Source: Propionivibrio dicarboxylicus (lineage in GTDB: Bacteria > Pseudomonadota > Gammaproteobacteria > Burkholderiales > Rhodocyclaceae). From it: DNA of 64,000 bases. Position 1 is the first letter of the stretch; every line of letters begins with the position of its first letter. The stretch lies in assembly GCF_900099695.1 (NCBI RefSeq), contig NZ_FNCY01000019.1, forward strand, positions 1-64,000, written 5' to 3'. Of the stretch, positions 38,807-57,422 are shown piece by piece. Both the position numbers and the translations under genes were made by a program. The notes beneath the pieces are model-generated. The model was given only the letters and a program-made list of their open reading frames with translations. It was not told the DNA's origin and made no database searches.

Positions 38807-38867
38807 GATAATTCTCCTTCCCTGTTCATGAGTTCTGCATCACTTCCCGGCGACCGTGTTCCCCTGC

Positions 38868-40853: not shown

Positions 40854-43055
40854 TCAGGCCGCTACCGGCCGGGCCAGGCGCAAATAGGAACGCTCGATAT
40901 CGCTGCAGTGCCGGATCAGCGCCGGAATGTCGAGAATCATGCCGACATCGCCGTTGCCGATGATCGTCGACCCCGACACCGCCGGCACCTCCGCGAACAA
41001 GGGCCCGAGCGGCTTGATGACCGTCTGGCACTTGCCGTAGATGCGATCGACGACGAGCCCGGCGCGCCGACTGCCGAAACGCACGACGATGATGCGCGGA
41101 CGCGGATGCGCCGGGCCTTCCTCGCCGAAGACATCGCGCAGGCGGATGAAGGGCAGAGGCTCGCCGCGCTGCTCGAAGTAGGCTGAATCGCCGATGTCGG
41201 GCGGCAGTTCGATGCACTCGACGACCATGTCGAGCGGGATGATGAAGTGCGAACTGCCGACGCCGACATGGAAGCCATCGATGATCGCCAGCGTCAGCGG
41301 CAGGCACAGGCGCATCGTCGTGCTCTGGCCGGGCACCGACTCGATATCGAGCGTGCCGCGCAGCGCCTCGATGTTGCTGCGCACGACGTCCATGCCGACG
41401 CCCCGCCCCGACAGGTTGGTGATCTTTTCTGCCGTCGAGAATCCCGGCGCCAGGATCAGCCGATAGACATCCTGATCGGAGAGAATCGCCTCGGGCGAGA
41501 TCAATCCCTGCTCCACCGCCTTCTTGAAGATGCGCTCGCGGTCGAGCCCGCCGCCGTCGTCCTTGACTTCAATGTTGATGCTGCCGGACTCGTGGTAGGC
41601 GTTGAGTTCGACCGTGCCGACCTCGGGCTTGCCGCGGGCGCGGCGGACCTCGGCCGACTCGATGCCGTGATCCATCGAATTGCGCACCAGATGCATGAGC
41701 GGATCGCCGATCTTCTCGACCATCGACTTGTCGAGTTCGGCCTCGGCGCCGTGGATGCGCAGCTCGATCTGTTTGCCCAGTTCCTTCGAGACATCGCGGA
41801 CGACGCGCGGGAAGCGCGAGAACACCTCGCCGATCGCGACCATGCGCAGGCGCAGCGCCATGTCGCGAATATCCTCGACGAGCGAGAGCAGGAGATCGGC
41901 CGATTCGAGCAGGTCGGGCTTGTCGAGCCGGCCGATCTGGGCGTGCGTGCCAACGCCGGCGATGACCAGCTCGCCGACGCGGTCGATCAGCGCGTCGAGA
42001 CGTTCGGCCGGGACCTTGACGCTCTTCGACTCGACATTGCGCCGTTCCTCGGCGTGGATCTGCTTCTTGACGGCCGCCTCGACCACCGTCGGCGGCACGG
42101 CACCCTGTTCGACCAGGATTTCGCCGATACGCGCCGGCGTCTCGGCGCGCCGCTGCTCGGCCAGCGCCTGTTCGAGCTCCTTGGCGGTAACCGACCCGCA
42201 GGCCACGAGAATTTCGCCGATGCGCGAAACGTCGCCGTGCAGGGCCTCGATCTGGTTGAGGAATTCGGCGATGCGACTCTGCGGCGGCAGGATGAGAATC
42301 TGCGAATTGTCCTGGACGAACTCGAAGACACCCTCGATCTCGGCCTTGCTCGCCGAACTGATCAGCGACACCTCGAAGCCGAGATAACAGATCTCCGGAT
42401 CGGCGCCGTCGAAATCGGGCAACTGGTCGGTGATCGTCTCGATATGGGCGATCTTGCCGTACTGGTTGAGGTAATTGATGAAGGCCAGCGGGTCCATGCC
42501 ATCCTGCAACACGCCCTCGCCGAAACGCAGGGACAGGTGCCAGTGATCGGCGGCCATCACGGCGCTGCCGTCCTCGTCCCGCTCCGGTTCGGCCGCAGTC
42601 TCCTGCGCCGGCGCCGGCGTCGTCGCCACCGGGCCGCCGGGCGCCGGGCCGCCAGGTGCCTGGCCCAGCACGCCCTGCAATTCGACGATCAGGGCGTCGC
42701 TGCGCGCCACCGGCATCTCGCTGTGCTCGGCGACCGCCACGATCAGGTTCGAGATATGGTCCTGGCATTCGAGCAGCAAGGTGATCAGGGCGCTGTCGAA
42801 CTGCAGGCTGCCCTTGCGCAGGCGGTCGAGCACGTTCTCGACGACGTGGGTGAAGCGGACCACCTCGTCGAGTCCGAACAGGCCGCCCGAGCCCTTGATC
42901 GTATGGGCACAACGGAACAGCGCGTTGAGGTCTTCCTCGTCGCAGGCAGCCTCCTCGGCCCGCAGCAGGATCGCCTCCATCTGATCGAGCAGTTCCCGCG
43001 CCTCCTCCATGAAGGCGCCGAGCGCTTGCGACAGGTCAATGCTGGAATCCGCCAT
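40854..43055 (-). CDS. cheA: Chemotaxis histidine kinase CheA with tandem MshEN-like motif (cluster A)
   Basis: 733 residues from the ATG at 43055 (RBS GAGGAG). HPt domain with His51 (AHTIKGSGG); Ala/Pro linker 132-160; a P2-like domain 171-258; two 24-residue motifs at 278-301 and 309-332, each R-I-G-x2-L-V-x2-G with V at position 12 and Gln at the end, resembling the cyclic-di-GMP-binding MshEN motif; dimerisation helices; ATP-binding domain (HLVRNSMDHGIE, DDGGGLD, GRGVGMDVV); CheW-like C-terminus. It phosphorylates CheY, CheB and other receivers from this operon. The MshEN-like insert is unusual for CheA and is shared by the CheA of cluster B. Cyclic-di-GMP control of the kinase is inferred. 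Confidence 0.95.
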   Translation of the reverse strand: MADSSIDLSQALGAFMEEARELLDQMEAILLRAEEAACDEEDLNALFRCAHTIKGSGGLFGLDEVVRFTHVVENVLDRLRKGSLQFDSALITLLLECQDHISNLIVAVAEHSEMPVARSDALIVELQGVLGQAPGGPAPGGPVATTPAPAQETAAEPERDEDGSAVMAADHWHLSLRFGEGVLQDGMDPLAFINYLNQYGKIAHIETITDQLPDFDGADPEICYLGFEVSLISSASKAEIEGVFEFVQDNSQILILPPQSRIAEFLNQIEALHGDVSRIGEILVACGSVTAKELEQALAEQRRAETPARIGEILVEQGAVPPTVVEAAVKKQIHAEERRNVESKSVKVPAERLDALIDRVGELVIAGVGTHAQIGRLDKPDLLESADLLLSLVEDIRDMALRLRMVAIGEVFSRFPRVVRDVSKELGKQIELRIHGAEAELDKSMVEKIGDPLMHLVRNSMDHGIESAEVRRARGKPEVGTVELNAYHESGSINIEVKDDGGGLDRERIFKKAVEQGLISPEAILSDQDVYRLILAPGFSTAEKITNLSGRGVGMDVVRSNIEALRGTLDIESVPGQSTTMRLCLPLTLAIIDGFHVGVGSSHFIIPLDMVVECIELPPDIGDSAYFEQRGEPLPFIRLRDVFGEEGPAHPRPRIIVVRFGSRRAGLVVDRIYGKCQTVIKPLGPLFAEVPAVSGSTIIGNGDVGMILDIPALIRHCSDIERSYLRLARPVAA

Positions 43056-43065
43056 GGCGTTCTCC

Positions 43066-43380
43066 TCAGGATTCGACGGCAGCGAGGTACAGCGGATCGC
43101 CGAGCGCGCTGCCAAGATTGGCGAGATCGACAAGCCGCAGCACCGCCGGCGGATGATTGACGAACTGCACCGTCTTGCCCGGATAGCGCTTGGCAATCAA
43201 CATCAGTTGCAGCCCGGCCGTATCCATCTCGGTGACCCCGGTCAGATCGATTTCCAGTGCATCGACCGCGACCAGTTCGCTGGCCAGCGCCGTCTTGAGT
43301 TCGCCGACGGTATAGATCGTCAGTTCGCCCGTCAGCCTGGCCGACGACTGTGTCCCATCCCTCTGAAACTCGAGTCCCAT
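43066..43380 (-). CDS. STAS-domain protein (cluster A)
   Basis: 104 residues, one STAS domain. The loop that holds the phosphoserine or threonine in anti-sigma antagonists reads VTEMDTAGLQLM, with a possible Thr acceptor. It lies 7 bp after cheY and 10 bp before cheA, and a homologue occupies the same relative place before cheA in cluster B (54858-55163), so it is a constant part of this chemosensory type. Its partner is unknown; regulation of CheA or of a receiver is the likely role. Confidence 0.85.
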   Translation of the reverse strand: MGLEFQRDGTQSSARLTGELTIYTVGELKTALASELVAVDALEIDLTGVTEMDTAGLQLMLIAKRYPGKTVQFVNHPPAVLRLVDLANLGSALGDPLYLAAVES

Positions 43381-43387
43381 GATCGCC

Positions 43388-43753
43388 TCACATCAACAGT
43401 TTGGAGACCACCGCCAGCATCTGCTGCGGCTGGAAGGGCTTGACGACCCAGGCCTTGGCGCCGGCCTCCTGCCCGGCCTTCTTCTTTTCCTCGGCCCCTT
43501 CGGTCGTCAGCATGACCACCGGCACGAACTTGTAGGCCGGCAGTTTCTTCATTTCCCGGACGAAGGTGATGCCGTCCATATTCGGCATATTGACGTCGCT
43601 GATGACGAGATGAATCTTGCGTCCATCGAGCTTGGCCAGGGCATCCTTGCCATCGACGGCTTCGATCACGTCGTAGCTGTTGCCCTTCAGCGCCATGCTG
43701 ACGACCTGCCGCATCGAGGTCGAGTCATCGACAATCAGAATGGTCTTGTTCAT
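43388..43753 (-). CDS. cheY: CheY-type response regulator (cluster A)
   Basis: 121 residues, a single receiver. Acidic pair Asp9-Asp10, phosphoacceptor Asp53 (VISDVNMP), conserved Thr in MLTTEG and Lys in VVKPF. It takes phosphate from CheA and carries the signal to the motor or another target. Very like the CheY at 53169-53534 in layout (both have KLPAYKF before the Thr strand). It lies between the MCP-like/CheZ-like gene and the STAS gene. Confidence 0.95.
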   Translation of the reverse strand: MNKTILIVDDSTSMRQVVSMALKGNSYDVIEAVDGKDALAKLDGRKIHLVISDVNMPNMDGITFVREMKKLPAYKFVPVVMLTTEGAEEKKKAGQEAGAKAWVVKPFQPQQMLAVVSKLLM

Positions 43754-43784
43754 GCGTGTTCCCCCCTGCTAAAAATTCCATCAA

Positions 43785-44948
43785 TCAGAAGAATGTGACT
43801 TCGGACTCGGCGACTGCGCCATGCGCACCCGGATGGGCGTGGTCGTGCTGCTCGATCGTGGTGTACATGCGCTCGATCTCGGCAATCCACGCCGACACGT
43901 CGATCGGCACCGGAACACCGGCAGCGGACACGCTCGCTTCGTCGCGCTCGACCCGTTCCCGGAGCCGGTGAATACCGGAGACGACGGCATGAAGAATCTG
44001 GCTGACGCGATCCTGGAACTGCAGATGCACCATCACCGCCTCGATATGCTCGCGTACTTGCAGGCTACCGGCACTCATCCGTTCGGCATCCTCGCTGAGC
44101 TGACGGACCAGACCGCCGATGCGTTCGAGTACCGAGTGGATCGTCGTGCCGGAATCGTTCATCAGCGCGGTGTTCTGTGCCGACAAGTTCGACGCCGTGG
44201 TCAGCGCCGCCAGCGTCGCCTGGCTGACGGCATTGACCTTGACCTGGATTTCCTGCCCGAGCTTCCCGGACTGGCTCGACAGCTTGCGCACCTCATCGGC
44301 CACCACCGCGAACCCCCGCCCGGCCTCACCGGCGCGCGCCGCTTCGATGGCGGCGTTGAGCGCCAGCAGATTGGTCTGCTTGGCGATGTCGGCGACGCCT
44401 TCGGCCATGCGCTTGAGATCCTCATTGACGCCCGACAGCGCGTTGAACTGGTCGAACATCGGCTTTTGCGCCGCGAAGGCCTGCTCCAGACGTTCGAGCA
44501 TATGCACGAGTTCGCCGCGGGCGCCGTCGAGCACACCGACCACGCCCTGCTCGGACTCGGTCTGGTGCCGGTCGAGCATCTGGCGCAGTTCCGCCAGGAT
44601 CGCACCGAAGCCCTGCGTCAGTTCGCTACCGGCCGTTTCAGTCTGCAGGCGGGCGATATCGACGTGTTTGGCCCAGCGCACCATCGACGCTTCCGACGCC
44701 GCGTGCAAGCTGCTGACATACGGCAGCAGATCGGGAGCATCGCCCGGCGTGCCGGCCTCCGGCGCCGCCGCCTGCGTCGGGCGATGCTCCAGCACCGACA
44801 CCACGGCCATGGCGCCGACGAGCCCGGCGGCGAGCGCCAGGCCGAGCGTCAAGGACGCCTGGCTCCACACCAGCAGGCCGCCGCCTGCCACCGCGACGGC
44901 CATCGACCCCCAGCGCACCCGCTTCAACAGCGATTCAGGCTCGTTCAT
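43785..44948 (-). CDS. MCP-like signalling protein with CheZ-like QFQDxxxQ helix (cluster A)
   Basis: 387 residues. Two adjacent membrane helices (about 15-30 and 32-53) and no periplasmic sensor, then a coiled coil with a receptor hairpin tip ([19 protein letters not shown], about 190-208). At 310-317 it reads QFQDRVSQ, with Asp313 and Gln317 in the spacing Asp-x3-Gln of the CheZ phosphatase site (E. coli DFQDLTGQ). The C-terminus is VTFF. It may couple receptor-like assembly to CheY-P dephosphorylation; this is inferred. It overlaps the receiver gene upstream by ATGA. A parallel gene is at 53544-54845. Confidence 0.8.
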
Positions 44949-45382
44949 GTCGCCTCCCGTTCTTCGGCCGCACCGATCGTCGTCCGCGTCGCGCCGGCGG
45001 CTTCCTCGGCCGGCGCGAACAGGCGCAGCTGAAGCTCACCCAGCACCCCGAGAAAGGTATCGATATCGCGCGATTTATCGAAGAAATAATCGGCGCCCAG
45101 GTCCAGGCAACGGGCGCGATATTCGGCATCGCCGTAATTGGTGAGAACGATGATGATCACATCGGGCAGCCGCGCCTTGACGTAATCCAGAACTGACAGA
45201 CCGCTGCCGCCGCGCAAGCGCAGGTCCAGCACGACGACATCCGGACGCTGCTGATCGACGCGCAAACGGGCATCAAGCTCCGTATCGGCCTCAGCCACGA
45301 TCTCACAGCCCGGGATGGCGCGGATCATGCCACGCAGCCGCTCCCGGAGCAGTCTCGAATCCTCGACAAGTAAGAGTTTCAT
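44945..45382 (-). CDS. Single-receiver response regulator
   Basis: 145 residues from the ATG at 45382. Receiver with acidic residues 7-8 (VEDSR), phosphoacceptor Asp53 ([12 protein letters not shown]) and the switch Thr in IVLTNYG; the usual Lys is present in FFDKSRD. The last 25 residues are Ala/Glu-rich with no output domain. It is nearer to NarL/NtrC-type receivers than to CheY. It follows the LuxR/kinase pair across a 147-bp gap with a large hairpin and overlaps the MCP-like gene, so it may be an extra phosphate sink or a target of the cluster kinases. Confidence 0.85.
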
Positions 45383-45448
45383 GCTTGCACCCGCCAACAC
45401 CTTTCGACACGATGGGAGCAGTGTGCCGGGCGAGCGCACGCGACGAAA

Positions 45449-45489
45449 CCGGCCGGCGGCGACAGCGCCTGTCGGCCCCCGCCGGCCGG
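45449..45489 (-). promoter_or_regulatory. Very stable intercistronic hairpin
   Basis: A perfect 11-bp arm pair (CCGGCCGGCGG at 45449-45459 and its complement at 45479-45489) encloses an inner repeat (CGACAG/CTGTCG). It stands between the LuxR gene and the receiver gene. No T-tract; it may limit readthrough from the regulator pair into the che genes or shape mRNA processing. Confidence 0.45.
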
Positions 45490-45529
45490 CGTGTAGGAAT
45501 CGGACTACAGCACGGGAACCGGCCGGGGT

Positions 45530-46177
45530 TCAGCCTGGCGGCACATCCTCGAAGAGCGCGTGGCGGACACCGTAGCGCACCAGTTCGGCGACGCTGGTCA
45601 TGCCCATCTTCTGAAACAGGCGCGTCTTGTAGGTGCTCACCGTTTTCGGGCTCAGGTTGAGGCGCTGGGCGATCTCGACGACGCCGTCACCGGCCGCCAG
45701 CTGGCGAAAGATCTGGAACTCGCGGTCGGACAAGCTTTCGTGCGGCGCCCGGTCATCCTTGACGATGAGGCCGTAGGCCAGTTCGCCGGCCACTTCCGGG
45801 CTGATGAAATGGCCGCCGGCGGCGACCTTGCGGATGGCGCTGATCAATTGGGCCGAGGCGCTGTCCTTGCACAGATAGCCCGCCGCACCGGCGCGAATCG
45901 TGCGGATCGCATACTCGTCTTCCTTGTACATGCTGAGGATGAGGATCGGCAGTCGCGGCGCCTCGGCGCGAATCTGCCGGATCAGATCGACGCCGCTGCG
46001 TCCCGGCATCGACATGTCGAGCAGCAGGATGTCCCAGCCGCCTTCGCGCACCCGCGCCAGCGTCTCGAAACCGTCGCCCGCCTCGCCTTTCACCGCCATG
46101 TCGCGGCTGGCCGCGAGAATCTGCTTCAGCCCCTCGCGCACAAGCGTGTGGTCATCGGCAATCAGGATCCGGATCAT
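45530..46177 (-). CDS. NarL/LuxR family response regulator
   Basis: 215 residues. Receiver with Asp54 (LLLDMSMPG) and Lys in LCKDSAS; C-terminal LuxR-type helix-turn-helix at about 148-205 (LSDREFQIFRQLAAG... ISEIA-like VVEIAQRLNLSPKTVSTYKTR). It starts within the last four bases of the kinase gene (ATGA overlap), so the two form a two-component pair. It is a DNA-binding regulator that could control the nearby che promoters, possibly through the TACGTA-containing element at 47400; that link is inferred from proximity. Confidence 0.92.
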   Translation of the reverse strand: MIRILIADDHTLVREGLKQILAASRDMAVKGEAGDGFETLARVREGGWDILLLDMSMPGRSGVDLIRQIRAEAPRLPILILSMYKEDEYAIRTIRAGAAGYLCKDSASAQLISAIRKVAAGGHFISPEVAGELAYGLIVKDDRAPHESLSDREFQIFRQLAAGDGVVEIAQRLNLSPKTVSTYKTRLFQKMGMTSVAELVRYGVRHALFEDVPPG

Positions 46178-47271
46178 GCCGCCCCCCCGCCCGACCTCGG
46201 GAGACGCACCTCGATATGCGTGCCGCGTCCCGGCGCGCTGTCGATCGTCACCGTCCCGCGCAGCAGGCTGACGCGTTCGCGGATGCCGACGATGCCGAAC
46301 GACTGGCGCGTCTCGGTCGGTTCCGGCGGCAGCCCGCGCCCGTCATCGGCAATCGTCACGAGGAGATCGCCGTCGCGCTCGTCGAGCGCGACCATCGCGT
46401 GACTCGCCTCGGCATGGCGGGCGATATTGGTCAGCGCCTCCTGCACGATGCGGAAGATCGCCGTCGACATCGGCTCGTCGAGGCCGAAATCCTCACACGA
46501 CAGGGACAGATCGCAGAGGATCCCGAACTGCCGCGAGAAGCGCCGCGCATAGCTCGCCAACGCCGCCTCGAGGCCGAGATCGTCGAGCATGCCGGGCCGC
46601 AGGTCCTCGCAGATGCGCCGCACCGAATCGACCGTCGTGTTGAGCATCGTGTCGATCGTCGCCAGGCGTTCGGCGATCATCGGATCGCGCGTGGACAAAC
46701 TGGTCGTCAGCGCGTTGAAATCGATGCGCAGCGCCGTCAGGCTCTGGCCCAGTTCGTCGTGCAATTCGCGGGCGAAGCGGCGCCGGTCTTCCTCGCGCAC
46801 GCGCAACAGGAACTCCGACAGGCGGCGCAGATGCGCTTCGCTCGCCTCAAGTTCGCGCGTCCGCTGGGCGACCCGCTGTTCGAGATGGCGGCGAATGCGG
46901 AACAGATTGGCGTGGGCACGCGCCCGGCCAAGCACCTCGCCGACGAAAAATGGCTTGCCGACATAGTCCACACCGCCGGCATCGAACGCGGCAATGCGAT
47001 CGGCCTGACTGTCGGACGCACTGACAAAGATCACCGGTATGTCGCCGGTCTTTGGGTCGGCCTTGAGCCGCCGGCAGACCTCATAGCCGTCCATGACCGG
47101 CATATATACGTCGAGCATGATGAGATCGAGCGTTTCCCGCGCCACGATCTCCAGCGCGGCCGGACCGGATTGCGCGCTCCAGACCCGAAAGCCGTCCTGT
47201 TCCAGGATGGACTGCAGCAGGACAAGATTGTCGCTGTTGTCATCGACGATGAGAACGGCTGTCGAGTCCAT
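46174..47271 (-). CDS. Receiver-histidine kinase hybrid (NarX/DegS-type HisKA_3)
   Basis: 365 residues. N-terminal receiver with Asp54 (LIMLDVYMP) and KPF; linker coiled coil 125-155; HisKA_3 dimerisation domain with the phosphoryl His171 in RRFARELHDELGQ; HATPase domain with EALTNIARHAEA and ADDGRGLPP. No membrane segment, so it is cytoplasmic and takes its input through its receiver, perhaps from CheA. It pairs with the LuxR regulator just downstream. It is the first gene of the minus-strand chemosensory set, facing the plus-strand set across the 294-bp control region. Confidence 0.92.
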   Translation of the reverse strand: MDSTAVLIVDDNSDNLVLLQSILEQDGFRVWSAQSGPAALEIVARETLDLIMLDVYMPVMDGYEVCRRLKADPKTGDIPVIFVSASDSQADRIAAFDAGGVDYVGKPFFVGEVLGRARAHANLFRIRRHLEQRVAQRTRELEASEAHLRRLSEFLLRVREEDRRRFARELHDELGQSLTALRIDFNALTTSLSTRDPMIAERLATIDTMLNTTVDSVRRICEDLRPGMLDDLGLEAALASYARRFSRQFGILCDLSLSCEDFGLDEPMSTAIFRIVQEALTNIARHAEASHAMVALDERDGDLLVTIADDGRGLPPEPTETRQSFGIVGIRERVSLLRGTVTIDSAPGRGTHIEVRLPRSGGGAA

Positions 47272-47565
47272 CAGCCGCTCACCGCACGGGACCGGTTGGG
47301 AAAGGCCAGGGCAGCGGGCATCGAATCATCACGTCATCATTTAATCAAAACGCCTACTTTATGCAAGGAGCGTCAGGAGTCAACTGCTTTGGCGGGCCAA
47401 CTACGTAGTTTCCGCAAAAAGTTGCAGAAATTACGGATGCACAGGGAACGGCGACTCTGGGAGCATGTCGGGAGAGGATCAAAACGTGCGGGGAGGCACG
47501 GGTGCTCTGCGCATACGCGCGACACCGTCGCAACATCCTTTTTGCACGCATCGCTGGAGAATGAA
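47272..47565. other. Divergent control region between the two chemosensory gene sets
   Basis: A 294-bp stretch without a supported gene (frames here lack start sites). It contains the 44-bp element at 47400-47443 and the leader of the HPt gene. No convincing sigma70 or flagellar sigma28 promoter was found on either strand. Confidence 0.55.
47400..47443 (+). promoter_or_regulatory. 44-bp conserved che upstream element, copy 1
   Basis: Begins with the perfect palindrome ACTACGTAGT, then TTTCCGCAAA, a TTGC block and ends ACGGATGCACA. It matches 53017-53060 in 34 of 44 positions without gaps. Both copies lie about 110-125 bp before a plus-strand che gene, so it is probably a promoter or activator site. 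Confidence 0.6.
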
Positions 47566-47985: not shown

Positions 47986-48021
47986 CCCGAACCGATCAAC
48001 GCAGAAGGCCTTCCCGACACT

Positions 48022-49149
48022 ATGCCCACATCCTTTTCCGTCTACGTCGTCGATGATGACCCAGTCGTGCTCGAGGTCATTGGTACCATCCTGAAGGACG
48101 ACTGCCGCATCAGCACCTTTACCAGCGTCGAAGACTGCCAGGTGAAGCTGGCCGACGAAAAGCCGGATCTCTTCCTGCTCGACGTCAATTTGCCCGGCCT
48201 CGACGGCTACACCTTCTGCCGCGCGCTCAAGGACGACTTCCCGACGCACCGGATCCCGGTCATCTTCGTCTCCTCGAAGGACACCATCGAGGAGCGCCTG
48301 CAGGGCTACGACGCCGGCGGCGAGGATTTCATCGTCAAGCCCTTCGCCCCCGAGGAACTGCGGCGCAAGGTCAAGGTGGCGCAAGCCCTGATCGCCGACC
48401 ACAAGGCGCTTGCCGGCCAGATCGAGGAAGCCGAGATGCTGTCCTCGCTGATCATGGCCAGCATGGATGAGACGGGCATCCTGCTCCAGTTCATGAGCAA
48501 GCTGATCGGCATGGAAAGCTGCGAGGAAATCGCCGGCGAACTGCTCGAACTGCTGCGCCGCTACCGGCTCGACGGCGTCGTCCAGACCCGCTTCGACGGT
48601 GTCACGGAAACACTCAGCAGCAGCGGCAAGAACATGCCGCTCGAAGTCTCGATCATCGAGCATGTGCGCGACCAGGGGCGCATTTTCGAATTCCGCCGCC
48701 GCAGCGTGCACAACTTCGAACGCGTCACCCTGATGATCAACAACCTGCCGATCGAGGATCCGGACTATTGCGGACGCCTGCGCGACCACCTTTCGGTCGC
48801 CGCCCAGGGCGCCGATTCGCGCCTCAAGGCCATGCAGGCAGAGCAAAGCAGCCGACGGGCACAAATAGCGCTGCTCGGCGCGCTCGACAGCATCGGCGAG
48901 AGCCTGCGCGAGTTGCAGGCGGCCGAGGACGTCAAGTCGACGACCAGTTCGTCCCTGATCGTCGAACTGCAGAAGACCTTGATCGACTCCTTCTACCGCC
49001 TCGGTCTGACCGACAACCAGGAAAAATTCCTGCAGGAACTCGTCGGCGAATTCATGGCGCGCATGGCGGCTCAACTCAACAGCGGGGTCGAGACGCGCGA
49101 AACGCTGCAGCGCCTGCTGGCGAAGCTGGGGGAACTGCGCGGTCAGTGA
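48022..49149 (+). CDS. Response regulator with unrecognised C-terminal output region
   Basis: 375 residues. Receiver 1-125 with Asp54 (FLLDVNLPG), switch Ser in FVSSKD and Lys in IVKPF. Residues 140-270 look like a degenerate GAF-type domain (SKLIGMESCEEIAGELLELL, then VTLMINNLPIEDPDYCGRLRDHL), and 275-375 is a long helical, coiled-coil-like tail. No DNA-binding, GGDEF, EAL or PP2C motif. Proteins of this layout occur beside chemosensory genes, but I do not know a defined function. It sits between the HPt and the cheD-cheR-cheD block, so it may be an HPt partner or an array scaffold. Confidence 0.8.
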   Translation: MPTSFSVYVVDDDPVVLEVIGTILKDDCRISTFTSVEDCQVKLADEKPDLFLLDVNLPGLDGYTFCRALKDDFPTHRIPVIFVSSKDTIEERLQGYDAGGEDFIVKPFAPEELRRKVKVAQALIADHKALAGQIEEAEMLSSLIMASMDETGILLQFMSKLIGMESCEEIAGELLELLRRYRLDGVVQTRFDGVTETLSSSGKNMPLEVSIIEHVRDQGRIFEFRRRSVHNFERVTLMINNLPIEDPDYCGRLRDHLSVAAQGADSRLKAMQAEQSSRRAQIALLGALDSIGESLRELQAAEDVKSTTSSSLIVELQKTLIDSFYRLGLTDNQEKFLQELVGEFMARMAAQLNSGVETRETLQRLLAKLGELRGQ

Positions 49150-49164
49150 CGCGTGGAGACGCGG

Positions 49165-49758
49165 ATGGACTACGCGAAAATGCCGGCCCGGGAAATCGAG
49201 CGCCTTGCGCGCAACGTGCATCCGGGCGCCTGGACCATCGATTCGTCGCAGCCGCTGGCGACGCTGCTCGGTTCCTGCGTCGCCGTCTGCCTCTACGATC
49301 CGCTGCTCCGGGTCGGCGGCATCAACCATTTCATGCTGCCCGACCTCGCCCGCAGCCGGCACGGCGACGTCGATAGCCTGCTGTCCGGCAACTTCGCCAT
49401 GGAAGCCTTGCTCAACGCCCTGCTCGGCAAGGGCGCCAAGAAGGTCCGGCTGCAGGCCAAGGCCTTCGGCGGCGGCACCATCATCGATACCGACGGCGGT
49501 TCGCTCAGCATCGGCATGCGCAACGCCAATTTCGCCAAGGAATGGCTCGAACGCGAGAGCATTCCGCTGACATCTTCTGATTTCCTCGGCCCCTGGTCGC
49601 GCAAGATCATTTTTCTTCCGACTACCGGCGACGCCTTCTGCAAGCGGATGGTAACCAACATGGCCACAGCCGAGGTCATTGCCCGCGAAGAAAAGGCCTA
49701 CGCGCAGACGCTGCTGCAGAAGCCTGCCGCCACCGACAAGAAGATCGAGCTATTCTGA
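49165..49758 (+). CDS. cheD: Chemoreceptor glutamine deamidase CheD, copy 1
   Basis: 197 residues from the ATG at 49165 (GGAG 6 bp upstream); a GTG at 49153 would add four residues. The catalytic pair is Cys38 in LATLLGSCVAVCLYD and His55 in GGINHFMLP; the Thr/Ser of KAFGGGT is present. CheD deamidates receptor glutamines and in some species stimulates CheC. The C-terminus ends IELF, like the MCP-like protein at 53544-54845. It is coupled to cheR by a TGATG overlap. A second CheD follows cheR. Confidence 0.93.
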   Translation: MDYAKMPAREIERLARNVHPGAWTIDSSQPLATLLGSCVAVCLYDPLLRVGGINHFMLPDLARSRHGDVDSLLSGNFAMEALLNALLGKGAKKVRLQAKAFGGGTIIDTDGGSLSIGMRNANFAKEWLERESIPLTSSDFLGPWSRKIIFLPTTGDAFCKRMVTNMATAEVIAREEKAYAQTLLQKPAATDKKIELF

Positions 49759-50567
49759 TGTCCGACGCCCCCATCACTGCCCAGGAATTCGCGCTGTTCC
49801 AGCGCCTTATCTACAAGATCGCCGGGATCAGCCTGAGCGATGCCAAGCGCGTGTTGCTCGTCGGCCGGCTGACGCGTCGTCTCAAGCACCACGGACTCGA
49901 GACCTTCAGCCAGTACTACCGCCTGCTGCAAAGCGGCGAGCAGCCGGAAGAACTGCAGACCATGGTGGACCTGCTCACCACCAACGAGACCTATTTCTTC
50001 CGCGAACCCAAGCACTTCGAGTTCCTGCGCGACGAGATCGTCGCCCGACGCAACAGCCCGACGACCTTCCGGGTCTGGAGCGCCGCCAGCTCGAGCGGCG
50101 AGGAAGCCTACTCGATCGCCATGACGCTGGCCGATTCGATGCAGGGCAAGAACTGGGAGATCGTCGGCTCCGACATCAGCACGCAAGTGCTGCGCCGGGC
50201 CGCCGCCGGCCACTACTCTCTGGCCCGCACCGAAGGTATCCCGAGCGAATTTCTCAAGCGCTATTGCCTGCGCGGCGTGCGCGCCAACGAAGGCACGCTG
50301 CTCATCGCCCCGGAACTCCGCCAGCGTGTCAGCTTCCACCAGATCAACCTGACGCTGCACGTCGACGCCGACATCGGCGAATTCGACGTCATATTCCTGC
50401 GCAATGTTATGATCTACTTCGATCCGGATACGAAGACGCGGGTCGTGCATAACCTGCTACCGCGGCTCAAGTCGGGCGGTTACCTGTTCATCGGCCATTC
50501 CGAAACACTCAACGGCATCACCGACCGGGTCCAGAGCGTCGAACCGACGATTTACCGAAAACCATGA
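49758..50567 (+). CDS. cheR: Chemoreceptor glutamate methyltransferase CheR
   Basis: 269 residues. N-terminal helical domain (FQRLIYKIAGISLSDAKRVLLVGRL), then the S-adenosylmethionine-binding fold with TTNETYFFREP, VWSAASSSGEEAYSIAM, GSDIST, and FDVIFLRNVMIYF. It methylates receptor glutamates; the MCPs of the window carry C-terminal tether peptides that could dock it. It is the only cheR seen and is held between two cheD genes by overlaps of one and four bases, which implies coupled translation. Confidence 0.95.
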   Translation: MSDAPITAQEFALFQRLIYKIAGISLSDAKRVLLVGRLTRRLKHHGLETFSQYYRLLQSGEQPEELQTMVDLLTTNETYFFREPKHFEFLRDEIVARRNSPTTFRVWSAASSSGEEAYSIAMTLADSMQGKNWEIVGSDISTQVLRRAAAGHYSLARTEGIPSEFLKRYCLRGVRANEGTLLIAPELRQRVSFHQINLTLHVDADIGEFDVIFLRNVMIYFDPDTKTRVVHNLLPRLKSGGYLFIGHSETLNGITDRVQSVEPTIYRKP

Positions 50568-51094
50568 AGACGATTCCCAACGCCGATTTCGAGACCGTCG
50601 TCCTGCACGCCGGCGATTTCTACTTCGGTGGCGGACGCACGCGCATCTCGACCCTGCTCGGCTCCTGCGTCTCGATCGCCTTGTGGCACCCGCGCCTGCG
50701 CATCGGCGGCATGTGCCACTACATGATGGAAGCGCGCCCGCGCCCCAGCGACGAAACGCTCGACGGCCGCTACGGCAGCGAAGCCTTCCTGATGTTCCTG
50801 CAGCACATCACCCGCACCGCCACGCAACCCGGCGACTACCAGGCCAAGCTCTTCGGCGGCGGCAACATGTTCAACGCAGAACGCGGCAAGAGCCCGGAAA
50901 TCGGCGCCCGCAACATCGAATGCGGCAAGCAGTTCCTCGCCGACCACAACATTCCGCTGATTTCCTCCCATGTCGGCGGCAGCGGCCGGCGCAAGCTCCA
51001 TTTCGACCTCTGGACCGGCGACGTCTGGCTGGCCTTCCCGGAAGGCGAAGGCGCCCACGTCCACACGCATCGAGGCAAGCGCGACCATGGCTGA
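50564..51094 (+). CDS. cheD: Chemoreceptor glutamine deamidase CheD, copy 2
   Basis: 176 residues starting in an ATGA overlap with cheR. Catalytic Cys35 ([15 protein letters not shown]) and His52 (GGMCHYMM) are intact, followed by KLFGGGNMF. It is clearly different from copy 1 (longer insertion [16 protein letters not shown], no IELF tail), so the copies are likely to have separate receptors or partners. It overlaps the cheB start by 8 bp. Confidence 0.93.
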
Positions 51095-52160
51095 ACGCAT
51101 CAAGGTCATGATCATCGACGACTCGGCCGTCGTCCGCCAGGTGGTGACCCAGGCACTCGCCGCCGACTCGGGCATCGAGGTCGTCGGCGCCGCGTCCGAC
51201 CCGGTCTTCGCAATGAGCCGGATGCAGACTGTCTGGCCCGACGTGATCATCCTCGACATCGAGATGCCGCGCATGGACGGCATCACCTTCCTCAAGAAGC
51301 TCATGGCCGAACGTCCGACGCCGACAATCATCTGCTCCTCGCTCGCCGAACGCGGCGCCAGCGCCACCTTTGCCGCGCTCGAAGCCGGCGCGGTCTCGGT
51401 CATCACCAAGCCGAAGCTCGGTCTCAAGAGCTTTCTCGAAGACTCGGCCAATGACATCGTCCAGGCCGTGCGCAGCGCCGCCCGCGCCAATCCGCGCGTT
51501 CTGAGCGCAGTGCGCAAACCGGTCGCGGTAGCGGCAGCGCCCTCCGAGCGCAACCTTGCGCTCGAGCGCACCACCGACCAGGTGATCGCCATCGGCACCT
51601 CGACCGGCGGCACCATCGCACTCGAATCGGTGCTCACCCAACTCCCCGCCACCACGCTCGGCATCGTCATCGTCCAGCACATGCCGGCGATGTTCACCGC
51701 GATGTTCTCCGAACGCCTCAACGACCTCTGCCAGATCGAAGTGCGCGAAGCCCGCCACGGCGACCGCGTCATCCCCGGCCGCGCCCTGATCGCCCCAGGC
51801 GGAAAGCATATGACGCTGCGTCGCAACGGCGCCCAATACGTCGTCGACGTCGCCGACGGGCCGCTCATCAACCGGCACAAGCCTTCGGTCGACGTGCTCT
51901 TCCGCTCGGTCGCCAAGATCGCCGGTGCCAATGCGCTTGGCATCATCATGACCGGCATGGGCGACGACGGCGCGCGCGGCATGCGCGAAATGCATGACGC
52001 CGGCGCACGCACCATCGCCCAGGACGAAGCCAGCTGCGTCGTCTTCGGCATGCCGAAGGAAGCGATCAAGCTCGGTGCCGTCGACCAGGTCATCCCGCTC
52101 GACCAGATCCCGGCCGCGATCATCGGCCACTCGGCCCGCCATCTCAAAGGAGACAGCTGA
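51087..52160 (+). CDS. cheB: Chemoreceptor glutamate methylesterase CheB (cluster B)
   Basis: 357 residues from the ATG at 51087; the frame is open further upstream inside cheD but without support. Receiver with Asp57, linker about 130-165, esterase domain with Ser172 (GTSTGG), the VQHMPAMFT histidine and GMGDDGARG aspartate. It resembles the cluster A CheB throughout. It is followed by the HDOD gene with a TGATG overlap. Confidence 0.95.
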
Positions 52161-52999
52161 TGGACGCCCCGTCTGCCCTGGAACGGATCGCTGCCGACGC
52201 GGCGCGCGGCGACATCGTCTTCCCGACCCACACCGACATCGCCTTGCGCGTACAGCGCCAGCTCGACGATCCCGACTGCAGCAGCGAATCGCTCGTCAAG
52301 CTGCTGGCAGCCGAACCGCTGCTCTCGGCGCGCGTGCTCTCGCTCGCCAACTCGACCGCCTACAATCCGGGCGGCCGCAGCATCGCCGACCTCAAGAACG
52401 CTATCGCGCGCATCGGTTACGCCGCCCTGCGCGCGCTGACCGCCTCGATCGTCGTCCGTCAGATGCAGGGCATGTCGGGCAATCCGGCGCACCGCGCCAT
52501 CGCCGCCCGCCTCTGGGAGCACACCACGCACGTCGCCTCGCTCGCCCGCCTGCTGGCCCGCCGCGTCACCCGGCAGAACCCGGACGCCGCCTTTTTTGCC
52601 GGCATCGTGCATGAAGTCGGCAGCTTCTACCTGATCTCGCGCGCCGCCGCCTACCCCGGCCTGCTCGAAGGCGACCACACGCTGGAAGCCTGGTGCGGCG
52701 ACGGCGAGGCGCTGGTCGGACGCGCCGTGCTCAAGGCGCTCGACGCGCCGGCATCGGTCGCCGACGCCATGGAGGTGCTCTGGGGCGGCTATCTCGCCAT
52801 GCCGCCGTCCTCGCTCGGCGACACCCTGCTGCTCGCCAACGAACTGGCGCCGGTCGAGTCGCCGCTCGACGCCCTTGAAAGCATGAGCCGCAAGGGGATG
52901 CCGGTCGAACTCGAACTCCTCATCAATGACGAAACACTAACGTCGATTCTGGCCGAATCGGCCGACGAAGTGCAGTCCCTGCGCCAGGCGCTGGCCTGA
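52160..52999 (+). CDS. HDOD-domain protein
   Basis: 279 residues, coupled to cheB by a one-base overlap and with AAAGGAG upstream. The HDOD fold is indicated by the start FPTHTDIALRVQRQL, the LLAAEPLLSARVLSLANSTAYN segment, RSIADLKNAIARIGYAALRAL and FFAGIVHEVGSFYL; the metal-binding HD pair of true HD hydrolases is reduced (HEVG). HDOD proteins are signalling scaffolds often beside chemotaxis and cyclic-di-GMP genes, and several affect flagellar genes. It is the last gene before the second copy of the 44-bp element. Confidence 0.88.
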   Translation: MDAPSALERIAADAARGDIVFPTHTDIALRVQRQLDDPDCSSESLVKLLAAEPLLSARVLSLANSTAYNPGGRSIADLKNAIARIGYAALRALTASIVVRQMQGMSGNPAHRAIAARLWEHTTHVASLARLLARRVTRQNPDAAFFAGIVHEVGSFYLISRAAAYPGLLEGDHTLEAWCGDGEALVGRAVLKALDAPASVADAMEVLWGGYLAMPPSSLGDTLLLANELAPVESPLDALESMSRKGMPVELELLINDETLTSILAESADEVQSLRQALA

Positions 53000-53016
53000 C
53001 GCAGGAGACCCGTAAT

Positions 53017-53060
53017 ACTACGTAGTTCCCGCAAATTCTTGCGGTTTCCACGGATGCACA
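53017..53060 (+). promoter_or_regulatory. 44-bp conserved che upstream element, copy 2
   Basis: Palindrome ACTACGTAGT followed by TCCCGCAAA, TTGCGG and ACGGATGCACA; 34 of 44 positions equal copy 1 at 47400-47443. It lies in the 169-bp gap between the HDOD gene and cheY, so the second half of the plus-strand set probably has its own promoter here. Confidence 0.6.
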
Positions 53061-53168
53061 AACCGATCGGCATTTGAGAGCATCTACCGGTCATGGCGAA
53101 ACCCGCAGACCACGCGATCTGCAACGACGGAGCCGCACCGCCGTCGGCAACATTGAAAAAGGAACAAC

Positions 53169-53534
53169 ATGCGCACAATCATGCTGGTGGATGACTCCGC
53201 CACCATTCTGCTGAGCATTTCGAGCATTCTGAGCAAAGCCGGCTATGGTGTCGAAAAGGCGGCCAACGCCGAACTGGCGCTGCAGAAATTCACCGCCGGC
53301 GTCAAGGTCGACCTGCTCATCACCGACCTCAACATGCCGGGAATGAACGGCATCGAACTGATCCGCGAGGTCCGTAAGCTACCGGCCTACAAGTTCATGC
53401 CGATCCTCTTCCTGACGACGGAATCGCAGCAGAGCCGCAAACTCGAAGCCAAGGAAGCCGGGGCTTCGGGCTGGATCGTCAAACCGGCGACCGCCGACGA
53501 GCTGCTCAACACCATCAAGCTGGTCCTCAAATAA
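53169..53534 (+). CDS. cheY: CheY-type response regulator (cluster B)
   Basis: 121 residues, one receiver: Asp8-Asp9, phosphoacceptor Asp53 (LITDLNMPG), Thr in FLTTES and Lys in IVKPAT. AAAAAGGAACAAC precedes the ATG. It starts the second transcription block of the plus-strand set and is followed by the MCP-like/CheZ-like gene after 9 bp, so the receiver and its likely phosphatase are side by side as in cluster A. Confidence 0.95.
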   Translation: MRTIMLVDDSATILLSISSILSKAGYGVEKAANAELALQKFTAGVKVDLLITDLNMPGMNGIELIREVRKLPAYKFMPILFLTTESQQSRKLEAKEAGASGWIVKPATADELLNTIKLVLK

Positions 53535-53543
53535 GGATGTGAG

Positions 53544-54845
53544 ATGACGCCGTTGGCGAGTTCGCCGCGCCGGCAGATTGCCGCCCGTACACTGGCGGTA
53601 CAGATTTCGGCGGCTGTTCTGGTCGCCGCGCTGGTCTATGCGCTGCACGGCTGGTTCCACGGCACCCTGGCCCCCTTGCTCGGCCTCGGGGCGCAGCTCA
53701 TCGACACGCTCGGCACGCTCGGCGTCGTGCTCTTCTTCATCGCGCTGCAGCGCGTCATCTCGACGCTATATTTCAACGACGCCTATTTCGGCTTGCGCGA
53801 GACGATCGAGGATCCGCGCCCGCGCTGCAACACCGATCGCCTGTGCGACCGCATGATCGTCCCAGAGCTGCGCGAGATCGCGCCGGTCAACAATCTGCTC
53901 ATCGACCAGCTGCACAACGTCGTTGCGCAGACCGAAAAAGCCGCCTTCGACATCACCGAACGCCTGCACGCCGTTGACGCCGTCATCGGCGAGCTGCAGA
54001 AGGTCGTCACCGCCGCCAGCGTCGAAACGATCGGTATCGCGCAGAGCTCGGAAAGCCGGTCGACGCAGAACCAGCAACTGATCGAGCGCCTGAAGAACTT
54101 CATCCACCAGCGTCTTGACGACACGCAGCGCGAAGCCGCCGAAAGCAAGGACGTCATCACCCGCACCGAATCGCTCAAGAAGCTCGTCGAGCTTGTCCGC
54201 GCCATTTCGGCGCAAACCAAGCTGCTCGCGCTCAACGCCGCCATCGAGGCGGCACGCGCCGGCGAAACCGGACGCGGCTTCGCCGTCGTCGCCGACGAGG
54301 TCCGCCAGTTGTCCGAAAACACCGATACCGCCGTCGACAAGATCAACGAAGGCATCGGCGCCGTCTCGACGATCATCGAAAGCCAGCACCGGACAAAGGT
54401 CAGCCACCAGCGCATCGACGAAGAGCAGAAGACGCTCGAAGCCTTCGCGCAACAGCTCGAATCGCTCGACCAGAACTACCGGCAGATGGTCGACAAGGAG
54501 CACGATGTCATCGCCCGCATCGCCGAGAGCGGCGAAGAGCTCGCGCAGATGTTCGTCAGCGCGCTGGCCAGCGTGCAATTCCAGGACGTCACCCGACAAC
54601 AGATCGAGCACGTCATCGAAGGGCTCAAGGCCGTCGGCACGCATACCGGCGCCGTCGCCGACGCCTGCGCGCCCGGTGCCTGCGACCGCCCGCCGAGCGA
54701 ACTGCCGTCGCTCAAGCAGCGGATGGACGCGCTGTATGCGAGCTACGTCATGGAAAACCAGCGTGACATTCACGACCGGGCGCTCGGCCGCGCCACACCG
54801 CGTCGTCAGGACGCTCCGGCAAATAGCCGGATCGAGTTGTTCTAG
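53544..54845 (+). CDS. MCP-like signalling protein with CheZ-like QFQDxxxQ helix (cluster B)
   Basis: 433 residues. Two membrane helices (about 17-36 and 55-75) with a short loop and no sensor domain; long coiled coil; receptor tip [21 protein letters not shown] at about 223-243. QFQDVTRQ at 345-352 carries Asp348 and Gln352 with CheZ active-site spacing. The C-terminus is IELF. It is the positional counterpart of 43785-44948. A combined receptor-scaffold and CheY-P phosphatase is proposed; a plain sensorless MCP is the alternative. Confidence 0.8.
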
Positions 54846-54857
54846 GAGACAAGCGCC

Positions 54858-55163
54858 ATGCCAATGACACAACGACTGAGCGTGACCGAAGAGATGACGA
54901 TCTACCATGCGCTCGACCAGAAAAACCTGCTGCTCGACGCGCTCCTGACCTGCGACGTGCTCGAACTCGATCTGCTGCAGGTCGGCGACATCGACACCGC
55001 CGGCCTGCAACTGCTCATCATGTTGAAGAAAGAGGCGCAGCGCACCGGCAAGCGCGTGGCGATCGTCGCGCACAGCCAGGCGGTGCAATCGGTCATCGAC
55101 TTCTGCAACCTGGCCGCCGAACTCGGCGACCCGCTGCTCATTCCGGCAGCGCAGGCGGCATAG
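54858..55163 (+). CDS. STAS-domain protein (cluster B)
   Basis: 101 residues, single STAS domain with the acceptor loop VGDIDTAGLQLLIML; Thr is the possible phosphoacceptor. AGGAGACAAGCGCC precedes the ATG. It lies between the MCP-like gene and cheA, and corresponds to 43066-43380 of cluster A (shared DTAGLQL and LGDPL near the end). Likely a partner of CheA or of a receiver; target unknown. Confidence 0.85.
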   Translation: MPMTQRLSVTEEMTIYHALDQKNLLLDALLTCDVLELDLLQVGDIDTAGLQLLIMLKKEAQRTGKRVAIVAHSQAVQSVIDFCNLAAELGDPLLIPAAQAA

Positions 55164-55187
55164 CGGAAAACGACTTCGGAGAACACC

Positions 55188-57422
55188 ATGGACGAACTGA
55201 CCAGCGTGTATGTGCAGGAAAGCCGGGAACAGCTGGCCGAGATGGAAGCCGGCCTGCTGCGGCTCGAGCAGACGCCCGACGACCGCGACACGATCAACGC
55301 CGTGTTCCGCGCCGCCCACACCATCAAGGGCGGCTCCGGCGTCATCGAATGCCACTTCATCGAGCACTTCACCCACCTCGTCGAGAATCTCCTCGACGCG
55401 CTGCGCAATGACGAAATCGAACTGTCGAGTGCCATCACGACGCTGCTGCTTGAATGCTGCGATCATATGGGACACCTGGTCGACACGCTCGCTGCCGGCA
55501 CCCCCGAGCCCGACCCGACCCTCTGCGCCGACGGCGAGGCACTGACCGGACGCCTGAAGGACATCATCGCCGCCGAACCGGGCCGGGGCGGCTCGTCGAG
55601 CCTGACCGTGACCGACGACACGGTCGAAGTCGAGAACCTCGGCAACGGCGTCGTCAATACCGACAGCTGGCACATCTCGGTGCGCTTCGGTCGCAACGTC
55701 ATGCGCGGCGGCATGGACCCGCTCTCCTTCCTGCGCTATCTCGGCAATCTCGGCGAGATCATCGGCACCGAAACCATCACCGACGCGATGCCGGCCGCCG
55801 CCGACATGGATCCGGAATCCTGCTACATGGGCTTCGAGATCCGCCTGCAGACGCGCGCCTCGAAATCCGAGATCGAACGCGTCTTCGATTTCGTCCGCGA
55901 CGACTGCGACCTGCGCATCCTGCCGCCGCAAAGCACGGTCACCGACTACATCCGCCTGATCAACGAACTGCCTGAAGACAACCTGCGGCTGGGCGAAATG
56001 CTGGTGCGCTGCGGCGCGCTGACGCAGGCCGAAGTCGACGCCGGTCTCAAGGCCCAGCATGCCGCCGAAGACACGCCGGCGGCCGAAGCGACGGCGCCGC
56101 CGCTCGGCGAGATCCTCGTCGAAAGCCGCATGGTGCACAAGGAAATCGTCGATGCCGCCGTCAATCGCCAGACGCAGATCGTCGACAAGAAAGCGCGCGA
56201 AGCCCAGCTTGTCCGCGTCCATGCCGACAAGCTCGACCAACTCATCGACCTCGTCGGCGAGCTCGTCATTGCCGGCGCCTCGGCCAACCTGCTGGCGCTC
56301 AAGAGCAACCAGTCGGACCTCGTCGAAGCCACTTCGATCCTCTCGCGCCTCGTCGAAAGCATCCGCGATTCGGCGCTGCAACTCCGCATGGTGCAGATCG
56401 GCGACACCTTCAACCGTTTCAATCGCGTCGTCCGCGACGTCTCGAAGGAACTCGGCAAGGAAATCGAACTGTCGATCAGCGGTGCCGACACCGAACTCGA
56501 CAAGACCGTCGTCGAGAAGATCGGCGACCCGCTCATGCACCTCGTGCGCAACTCGCTCGATCACGGCATCGAACCGGTCGCTGTCCGTCTCGAACGCGGC
56601 AAACGCGCCTGCGGCCGTGTCTCGCTCAACGCTTACCATGATTCCGGCATCATCGTCATCCAGGTCTCGGACGACGGCGGCGGACTCAACCGCGAGAAAA
56701 TCCGGGCCAAGGCGATCGAACGCGAGCTGATCCAGCCGGGCGACAACCTTGGCGACAAGGAAATCATCAACCTCATCTTCGAACCCGGCTTCTCGACCGT
56801 CGACAAGGTCTCGAATCTCTCCGGACGCGGCGTCGGCATGGACGTCGTGCGGCGCAACATCCTGGCGCTGCGCGGCACCGTCGATGTCGAATCGGTCGAA
56901 GGCCAGGGTTCGACCTTCACCATCCGGCTACCGCTGACGCTCGCCATCATCGACGGCTTCCTCGTCGGCATCGAAAAAGCCGCCTACGTCATCCCGCTCG
57001 ACTCGGTCGTCGAATGCATCGAACAGAAGAACCTGACCGGCGACCGCAACTTCCTCAACCTGCGCGGCGAGGCGCTGCCCTTCATACGCCTGCGCGATAT
57101 CTTTGAAATCCCGGGCGAGGCACCGGCCCGCGAAAGCATCGTCGTCGTCCAGTCCAACGGACGCCGTGCCGGCATCGTCGTCGATCACCTGATGGGCGAA
57201 TTCCAGACGGTGATCAAGCCGCTCGGGCGCATGTTCGCGCACCTGCGTGGCATCGGCGGCTCGACCATCCTGGGCAGCGGCGAGGTCGCCCTCATCCTCG
57301 ATGTCGGCGCCCTCGTCAATCTCGTCACCCGCGCCGAGGAAGAGCGTCTGCTGCCACACCGGCACACGCTCGCGCTCGCGTCCTCTTCCACCAATTCCAC
57401 TGCGATTCCATCGGGGAGATAA
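55188..57422 (+). CDS. cheA: Chemotaxis histidine kinase CheA with tandem MshEN-like motif (cluster B)
   Basis: 744 residues. HPt with His44 (AAHTIKGGSG); P2-like domain 160-247; MshEN-like motif at 267-290 (R-L-G-x2-L-V-x2-G ... Gln) and a second, degenerate one at 305-328 where the leading Arg and the second Gly are replaced by Pro and Arg; then dimerisation helices, ATPase domain (HLVRNSLDHGIE, DDGGGLN, GRGVGMDVV) and a CheW-like end. It is coupled to the MCP gene that follows by only 3 bp. The architecture equals that of the cluster A kinase, and the motif in its first copy fits the cyclic-di-GMP-binding consensus best. Confidence 0.95.
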   Translation: MDELTSVYVQESREQLAEMEAGLLRLEQTPDDRDTINAVFRAAHTIKGGSGVIECHFIEHFTHLVENLLDALRNDEIELSSAITTLLLECCDHMGHLVDTLAAGTPEPDPTLCADGEALTGRLKDIIAAEPGRGGSSSLTVTDDTVEVENLGNGVVNTDSWHISVRFGRNVMRGGMDPLSFLRYLGNLGEIIGTETITDAMPAAADMDPESCYMGFEIRLQTRASKSEIERVFDFVRDDCDLRILPPQSTVTDYIRLINELPEDNLRLGEMLVRCGALTQAEVDAGLKAQHAAEDTPAAEATAPPLGEILVESRMVHKEIVDAAVNRQTQIVDKKAREAQLVRVHADKLDQLIDLVGELVIAGASANLLALKSNQSDLVEATSILSRLVESIRDSALQLRMVQIGDTFNRFNRVVRDVSKELGKEIELSISGADTELDKTVVEKIGDPLMHLVRNSLDHGIEPVAVRLERGKRACGRVSLNAYHDSGIIVIQVSDDGGGLNREKIRAKAIERELIQPGDNLGDKEIINLIFEPGFSTVDKVSNLSGRGVGMDVVRRNILALRGTVDVESVEGQGSTFTIRLPLTLAIIDGFLVGIEKAAYVIPLDSVVECIEQKNLTGDRNFLNLRGEALPFIRLRDIFEIPGEAPARESIVVVQSNGRRAGIVVDHLMGEFQTVIKPLGRMFAHLRGIGGSTILGSGEVALILDVGALVNLVTRAEEERLLPHRHTLALASSSTNSTAIPSGR

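Follow-up and report, generated by a model that had tools for sequence, protein, structure and literature searches.

A candidate cyclic-di-GMP-binding MshEN-type module between P2 and P3 of two CheA kinases in Propionivibrio dicarboxylicus

Two chemotaxis clusters with complete CheA kinases

We analysed the first 64,000 nucleotides of contig NZ_FNCY01000019.1 of Propionivibrio dicarboxylicus (assembly GCF_900099695.1; hereafter the window). Two chemotaxis clusters lie in it, A on the minus strand and B on the plus strand, and each encodes one CheA kinase, named here CheA-A and CheA-B. Cluster A runs in the order CheA, MCP, MCP, CheW, MCP, CheB, REC-PAS-GGDEF-EAL, and cluster B ends with CheA, MCP, CheW and then REC-HD-GYP. 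The features are:

30774..32939, minus strand: REC-PAS-GGDEF-EAL protein at the distal end of cluster A, gap 0 after CheB
32940..34001, minus strand: CheB of cluster A
34101..40787, minus strand: cluster A stretch of MCPs and CheW, made up of the next four genes
34101-36023, minus strand: MCP
36083-36643, minus strand: CheW
36653-38806, minus strand: MCP
38868-40787, minus strand: MCP
40854..43055, minus strand: CheA-A, 733 aa, with Hpt, P2 (no Pfam hit), MshEN-like module, P3, HATPase and CheW-like domains
42060..42131, minus strand: CheA-A MshEN motif II (aa 309-332), within the NF053729 match
42153..42224, minus strand: CheA-A MshEN motif I (aa 278-301); NF053729 match 42060-42224
43388..47271, minus strand: genes upstream of CheA-A, made up of the next five
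43388-43753, minus strand: CheY-like REC protein
43785-44948, minus strand: MCP with no sensor domain hit
44945-45439, minus strand: REC protein
45530-46177, minus strand: REC-LuxR protein
46174-47271, minus strand: REC-HisKA_3 kinase
48022..55163, plus strand: genes upstream of CheA-B, namely REC protein, CheD, CheR, CheB, HDOD, CheY-like REC, MCP (no sensor domain hit) and STAS
55188..57422, plus strand: CheA-B, 744 aa, domain order as in CheA-A
55986..56057, plus strand: CheA-B MshEN motif I (aa 267-290)
56100..56171, plus strand: CheA-B motif II (aa 305-328)
57426..60451, plus strand: MCP with HAMP repeats, and CheW, of cluster B
60727..61899, plus strand: REC-HD-GYP protein, gap of 275 bases after the cluster B CheW

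Both kinases are complete, with Hpt, H-kinase_dim, HATPase_c and CheW domains all over the Pfam cut-off, and they are 51% identical to each other. Five places in this genome match H-kinase_dim, and our own model of the module matches only CheA-A and CheA-B among them.

Several neighbouring genes deserve mention in their own right. Upstream of cluster A, the genes of the REC-LuxR regulator and the REC-HisKA_3 kinase (45530-47271) overlap by 4 bases. In the receiver protein upstream of CheD in cluster B (48022-49149), the C-terminal part of about 255 residues has no Pfam match, and HDOD (52160-52999) and STAS (54858-55163) proteins are encoded within the same cluster. The MCP at 57426-59873 contains several HAMP_2 repeats (308 bits, three stretches).

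Tandem motifs in CheA-A and CheA-B

The preliminary description placed tandem 24-residue motifs of the MshEN type in both CheAs, and we located them at exactly those residues. In CheA-A, motif I is RIGEILVACGSVTAKELEQALAEQ (aa 278-301) and motif II is RIGEILVEQGAVPPTVVEAAVKKQ (aa 309-332), separated by 7 residues as against 5 in MshE; residues are numbered from the ATG (MADSS), and the listed open reading frame begins 47 codons upstream, at a TTG. Each copy has R1, I2, G3, aliphatic residues at 17 and 21 (Val17 and Val21 in motif II) and Q24, so that CheA-A carries two copies of the form R/K/L at position 1, aliphatic at 2, G3, aliphatic at 17 and 21, and Q24. Judged by sequence, the Ile2 found in both CheA-A motifs and the two valines of motif II are conservative changes. 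Motif I of CheA-B, RLGEMLVRCGALTQAEVDAGLKAQ (aa 267-290), has R1, L2, G3, G10, V17, L21 and Q24. Fourteen residues further on, motif II, PLGEILVESRMVHKEIVDAAVNRQ (aa 305-328), deviates by Pro1 and Arg10 and retains Gln24, leaving CheA-B without a second intact motif.

In MshE, c-di-GMP is contacted through positions 1, 2, 3, 17, 21 and 24 of each motif and through the residue after Gly3 (PMC5013675). A strict form of the motif, in which we allowed any residue at position 11, gave no match in 20,000 shuffles of CheA-A or of CheA-B. The strict motif published by Wang et al. (Leu2, aliphatic 11) is fitted by neither CheA; their relaxed form fits only motif II in CheA-A and only motif I in CheA-B, and it matched 26 times for CheA-A and 22 times for CheA-B in 20,000 shuffles each.

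Profiles and predicted fold

Profile searches identify the module in CheA-A. NF053729, an NCBIfam model of MshE-related c-di-GMP domains, matches CheA-A with 45.1 bits against a cut-off of 38, whereas CheA-B stays below it with 26.2 bits. The same model matches all 56 members of family alignment A3 (window's two included; E<=0.01). The Pfam MshEN model PF05157 matches neither CheA-A nor CheA-B, but this silence says little because at three other loci in this genome PF05157 starts beside the motifs while NF053729 covers them; PF05157 was accordingly rejected as a detector. A profile of the CheA family compared with PDB sequences gave 14 matches at E<=10, all of them MshE, PilB or PilF. The best is Thermus PilF (E 1.7e-18), and the top-scoring stretch is its GSPII-C domain.

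The predicted structure of CheA-A agrees. An AlphaFold2 model of residues 264-346 (pLDDT 87.7) displays a lead helix followed by four helices at the MshEN places, forming the four-helix bundle known from MshE residues 7-65. Among 57 Foldseek matches of this model the first 7 are MshEN-type domains, led by 5htl_A, c-di-GMP-bound MshE (prob 1.00, 1.2 Å over 57 columns, 32% identity); its E value is only 0.14 because the domain is short. PilF GSPII-B is also among the best matches, and PilB-PilZ structures appear as well. VIA-align gave Z 9.3 for MshE and for PilF GSPII-B, and 7.1 for the last MshEN-type row; the highest-scoring unrelated row reached 4.5. Since helical bundles with Z below about 13 may share only a common arrangement, these values are ambiguous by themselves, and the fold argument rests on the gap in Z together with the sequence.

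For CheA-B we modelled residues 152-413 (pLDDT 89.2). The model contains a ferredoxin-like P2 and then, at the places that correspond to MshEN, four module helices of high confidence, the last of them 23 residues long. After a gap of five residues the first helix of the P3 hairpin begins. The listed fold matches of this P2-MshEN-P3 model cover P2 and the P3 hairpin and not the module, which the search did not reach because P2 filled the match list. The P3 hairpin matches PDB chain 3ja6_C (1.1 Å, 40% identity), which we take to be CheA; the entry title mentions a kinase conformational switch.

The identification of the segment as MshEN-like thus stands by profile for CheA-A and for the family as a whole and by predicted fold for CheA-A, while CheA-B scores below the profile cut-off. 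A predicted fold unlike MshEN, named in the preliminary description as grounds for refutation, did not emerge for CheA-A; the CheA-B search returned P2 and P3 only. On the model, the fold assignment for CheA-A is sound, and CheA-B probably has the same fold.

A separate observation concerns TIGR03029, the EpsG tyrosine kinase model, which matches 17 of the 56 CheA MshEN segments in alignment A3 and hints at an MshEN-like segment in EpsG kinases.

Conservation of the module among CheAs

A search of CheA families for the insert, proposed in the preliminary description, located the module between P2 and P3 in 96 CheA loci with both motifs, the window's two included. Similarity to the window segment was the basis for collecting these loci, which are therefore not a measure of how frequent the module is. 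Within the class, a match extending from the module into P3 is present in 22 of 274 genomes (manual count of the list, this genome included).

We grouped the 96 loci into 53 clusters and counted residues at the motif positions. Motif I is strongly conserved, with G3 in 53 clusters, L17 in 50, L21 in 52, Q24 in 52 and R1 in 40. Motif II retains G3 in 52, V17 in 50 and Q24 in all 53, along with K23 in 44, A19 in 46 and A20 in 52. Position 1 of motif II is less uniform, with Arg in 14/53 and Pro in 18/53 (Lys in 29/32 control MshENs), and position 21 is Ala or Val in 24/53 (Val in CheA-A). The spacer ranges from 2 to 23 residues in the CheAs and is 5 in 32/32 control pairs. Contact positions are less variable than other positions outside the core (mean entropy 0.77 vs 1.86, permutation p 0.0011). 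Clusters with G3, Q24, R/K/L at position 1 of each motif and aliphatic residues at 17 and 21 number 17 of 53, CheA-A among them; when Pro is also allowed at motif II position 1 the count is 29 of 53, and CheA-B is included. Gly10 was considered as a requirement and rejected, since Gly occupies motif I position 10 in only 11/32 control MshENs.

Two CheAs (loci L029 and L032) match part of the module only and are possible half-site forms.

Family sample. 119 loci were taken. 16 gave no CheA by pattern (half of them, 8, had been taken for MshEN in other proteins encoded by this genome; at the other 8 the pattern missed a CheA), and 7 of the remaining 103 CheAs lack one or both motifs. Locus L031 was excluded from alignments A3 and A4.

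Control sample. 32 MshENs of other proteins. 30 pairs came from top NF053729 loci (30/30 gave a pair); being the top-scoring matches of 185 genomes, they lean canonical. The remaining 2 came from 8 loci of the genome studied here (one protein twice).

Proposed function and alternatives

From motifs, profiles and fold we infer that both CheAs are members of a subfamily in which a four-helix bundle of MshEN_N type lies between P2 and the dimerisation hairpin of P3, and that c-di-GMP bound there would alter the kinase; we regard this overall reading as evenly poised. Its parts differ in strength. Binding of c-di-GMP by CheA-A is likely on sequence and model: the bundle would hold one c-di-GMP, half of it per motif, with roughly micromolar or better affinity, and the messenger should be present because the genome has 56 GGDEF places. 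The bundle lacks an MshEN_C partner, which is no objection since c-di-GMP binding at 0.35 uM is reported for MshEN_N by itself (PMC5013675). Binding with an effect on CheA output has about an even chance. In the CheA-B model the module ends five residues before P3, so a bound nucleotide would make the joint between P2 and P3 stiffer or change its orientation, and a change at this joint would alter autophosphorylation or phosphotransfer; we infer this effect and its sign rather than read them from the data. In CheA-B the second half-site would be weaker or altered, and binding by this kinase is conceivable but somewhat doubtful.

A division of labour, in which CheA-A binds c-di-GMP and CheA-B is blind to the messenger, is compatible with the main reading and falls a little short of an even chance. 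The kinase-core tree bears on it directly. CheA-A belongs to a 12-member clade (support 1.0) that keeps R1 (10/12) and G10 (9/12) in motif II, with spacers of 6-12 residues. CheA-B belongs to a 21-member clade (support 0.998) in which motif II has R1 in 1/21, Pro, Gln, Ser or His at position 1 in 20/21, G10 in 1/21 and A21 in 9/21, with spacers of 10-23 residues; the low NF053729 score of CheA-B points the same way. The altered motif II of CheA-B is thus a property of the clade and not the decay of one gene, an explanation ruled out because 20 of the 21 members lack Gly10. Against blindness of CheA-B to c-di-GMP, G3 and Q24 are retained in both motifs by 21/21 members of its clade, as by 12/12 of the CheA-A clade, Pro1 occurs in GSPII-C, which binds c-di-GMP, and residues other than Gly at position 10 are common in control MshENs. 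Members of both clades reside together in one Rhodocyclus genome (L041, L290) and one Accumulibacter genome (L042; L295, L296), so the CheA-A/CheA-B pair looks like an old duplication.

It is also possible, though unlikely, that the module is an MshEN-derived interaction or spacing element that needs no nucleotide and serves to rigidify the P2-P3 joint or to dock a partner. Docking has an analogy in Xanthomonas citri, where the N-terminal domain of PilB docks PilZ, and the fold search also matched PilB-PilZ structures. The spacer and motif II position 1 vary widely, and motif II K23, A19 and A20 are conserved though they are not among the MshE contacts named in the available part of the source (PMC5013675). 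Furthermore, a distant group of the same phylum (L166-L209) keeps a shortened module in 30 of 43 CheA loci readable by pattern (the other 13 did not fit the pattern, and three of these have no module). Of these 30 CheAs, 27 have motif I truncated, with neither Q24 nor spacer, and 3 retain Q24, with one residue between the motifs, yet motif II Q24 is retained in 30/30; conservation is therefore no proof of binding. In this group motif II Q24 has a role beyond c-di-GMP, and the shortened module, by its sequence, should not bind the messenger. Several observations speak against a nucleotide-free element as a general explanation: the contact positions of motif I are kept across the 53 clusters, exposed positions that make no contact vary freely, and, in the rows read, loss of motif I Q24 is confined to spacers of 2 residues or fewer. 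Three CheAs (L175, L176, L177) have the same P2 and P3 joined by an ordinary linker that lacks the module, and are natural deletions or forms that precede the insertion.

The best Foldseek E value of 0.14 and the silent Pfam model would fit a helical repeat that resembles MshEN by chance or through low complexity, but this reading is exceedingly improbable given 0/20,000 shuffles per protein with the strict form, the profile E of 1.7e-18 to PilF, 14/14 PDB matches of MshEN type and the drop in VIA Z from 7.1 to 4.5 at the first unrelated row.

Relation to known systems

Like MshEN_N of MshE (PDB 5htl), the module has tandem 24-residue motifs, a four-helix bundle and most contact residues. Unlike MshE, its host is CheA and not an ATPase, MshEN_C is absent, the spacer is 7 or 14 and not 5, and CheA-A has Ile2 in both motifs. 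The residues between MshEN motifs are described as non-conserved (PMC5013675), and the motif I-II spacer of PilF GSPII-C is 7; we thus treat a spacer of 5 as a property of MshE and not as defining.

Thermus PilF provides the closest precedent for the deviations. The first motif position has been extended to R/K/L (PMC11731258). GSPII-B, with Lys and Leu at position 1, binds c-di-GMP at 6 nM, and GSPII-C binds it at about 0.3-0.5 uM (PMC11731258). In its sequence GSPII-C has the spacer of 7 seen in CheA-A and the motif II Pro1 seen in CheA-B. However, PilF is a traffic ATPase, and its GSPII-C domain contains a third motif and extends further at the C-terminal end, so the pair that binds may not be the 7-spaced one. 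Exchange of the two motif glutamines for Glu abolished binding in GSPII-B (PMC11731258). GSPII-A provides a caution of another kind, as a near-consensus domain, even with the consensus restored, can fail to bind c-di-GMP. The spacers and the degenerate second copy, which the preliminary description itself gave as grounds for caution, weigh less than it supposed, given that GSPII-C binds with a spacer of 7 and motif II Pro1 and that 21/32 controls have a residue other than Gly at position 10.

The architecture itself has been named before. Wang et al. (2016) list CheA among MshEN-associated proteins (PMC5013675), the same architecture as in the proteins described here and possibly the same subfamily; the available part of that text gives no position, binding or kinase test. 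Among the matches listed from open-licence full texts, none is a functional test of c-di-GMP on an MshEN-bearing CheA. The preliminary description presented c-di-GMP gating of CheA as a new control point: in the architecture it was anticipated in 2016, in function it has no counterpart in those open-licence papers. The 2016 mention makes the module a good lead and not a new kind of system. The place of the module, the clade split, the spacer range, the shortened form and the linked enzymes are absent from the literature examined.

Direct control of histidine kinases by c-di-GMP has precedent in CckA (PMC7288161). There c-di-GMP acts at the CA domain and not via an MshEN module. A hybrid kinase controlled by c-di-GMP, which we take to be ShkA, works through its Rec1-Rec2 linker, likewise without such a module.

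If CheA reads c-di-GMP, the switch between swimming towards a signal and settling could sit inside the receptor-kinase array and not at the flagellar motor or in adaptors such as MapZ. The family is sizeable, with 96 loci among those examined, and the prediction is a precise one, down to six contact positions in each motif and two glutamines. CheAs with, without and with a shortened module serve as comparators, making a one-line suggestion of 2016 testable.

Linked c-di-GMP enzymes

Each cluster of the window encodes a c-di-GMP enzyme linked to a receiver. The REC-PAS-GGDEF-EAL protein of cluster A has both GGDEF and EAL signature motifs, and the REC-HD-GYP protein of cluster B has the HD and HHE..GYP motifs. 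One may imagine a closed loop, in which CheA would sense c-di-GMP via MshEN and phosphorylate the receiver of the co-encoded enzyme, each array thus both setting and sensing the c-di-GMP pool, and the two arrays, differing in their second half-sites, would respond at different thresholds; we consider this improbable, and support for it outside the window is mixed.

Across the class there was no enrichment: a c-di-GMP enzyme lies within about 10 kb of 4/20 module-bearing CheAs and 3/17 other CheAs. Among closer relatives, taken with no control set, 37 of 59 loci have such an enzyme (80 loci; the rest were too short or gave no CheA). In 23 genomes of close relatives an enzyme is near 16/31 module-bearing and 5/43 other CheAs (Fisher p 2e-4), a comparison tilted towards the module side by a few retained controls whose flanks are short (the shortest 5 kb). 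Removal of ChpA-like kinases leaves 1/32 controls with a c-di-GMP enzyme. Collapsed to lineages, the counts are 10/18 vs 5/18 (p 0.18), or vs 1/17 without ChpA-like kinases (p 0.003).

Neighbourhood samples. Class-wide: 20 + 20 loci, less 3 controls shorter than 12 kb. Among the controls, L247 contains in addition a second CheA, whose match to the module is weak, and L241 comes from the genome studied here. Close relatives: 60 of 85 places, chosen by eye, were used; 4 had no CheA and 5 were duplicates.

Receiver-linked EAL or HD-GYP proteins, the kind found in the window, accompany 8/31 module-bearing and 0/43 other CheAs of the close relatives, or 4/18 vs 0/18 by lineage (p 0.10). REC-EAL proteins are encoded downstream of CheA at one Duganella locus and two Rubrivivax loci.
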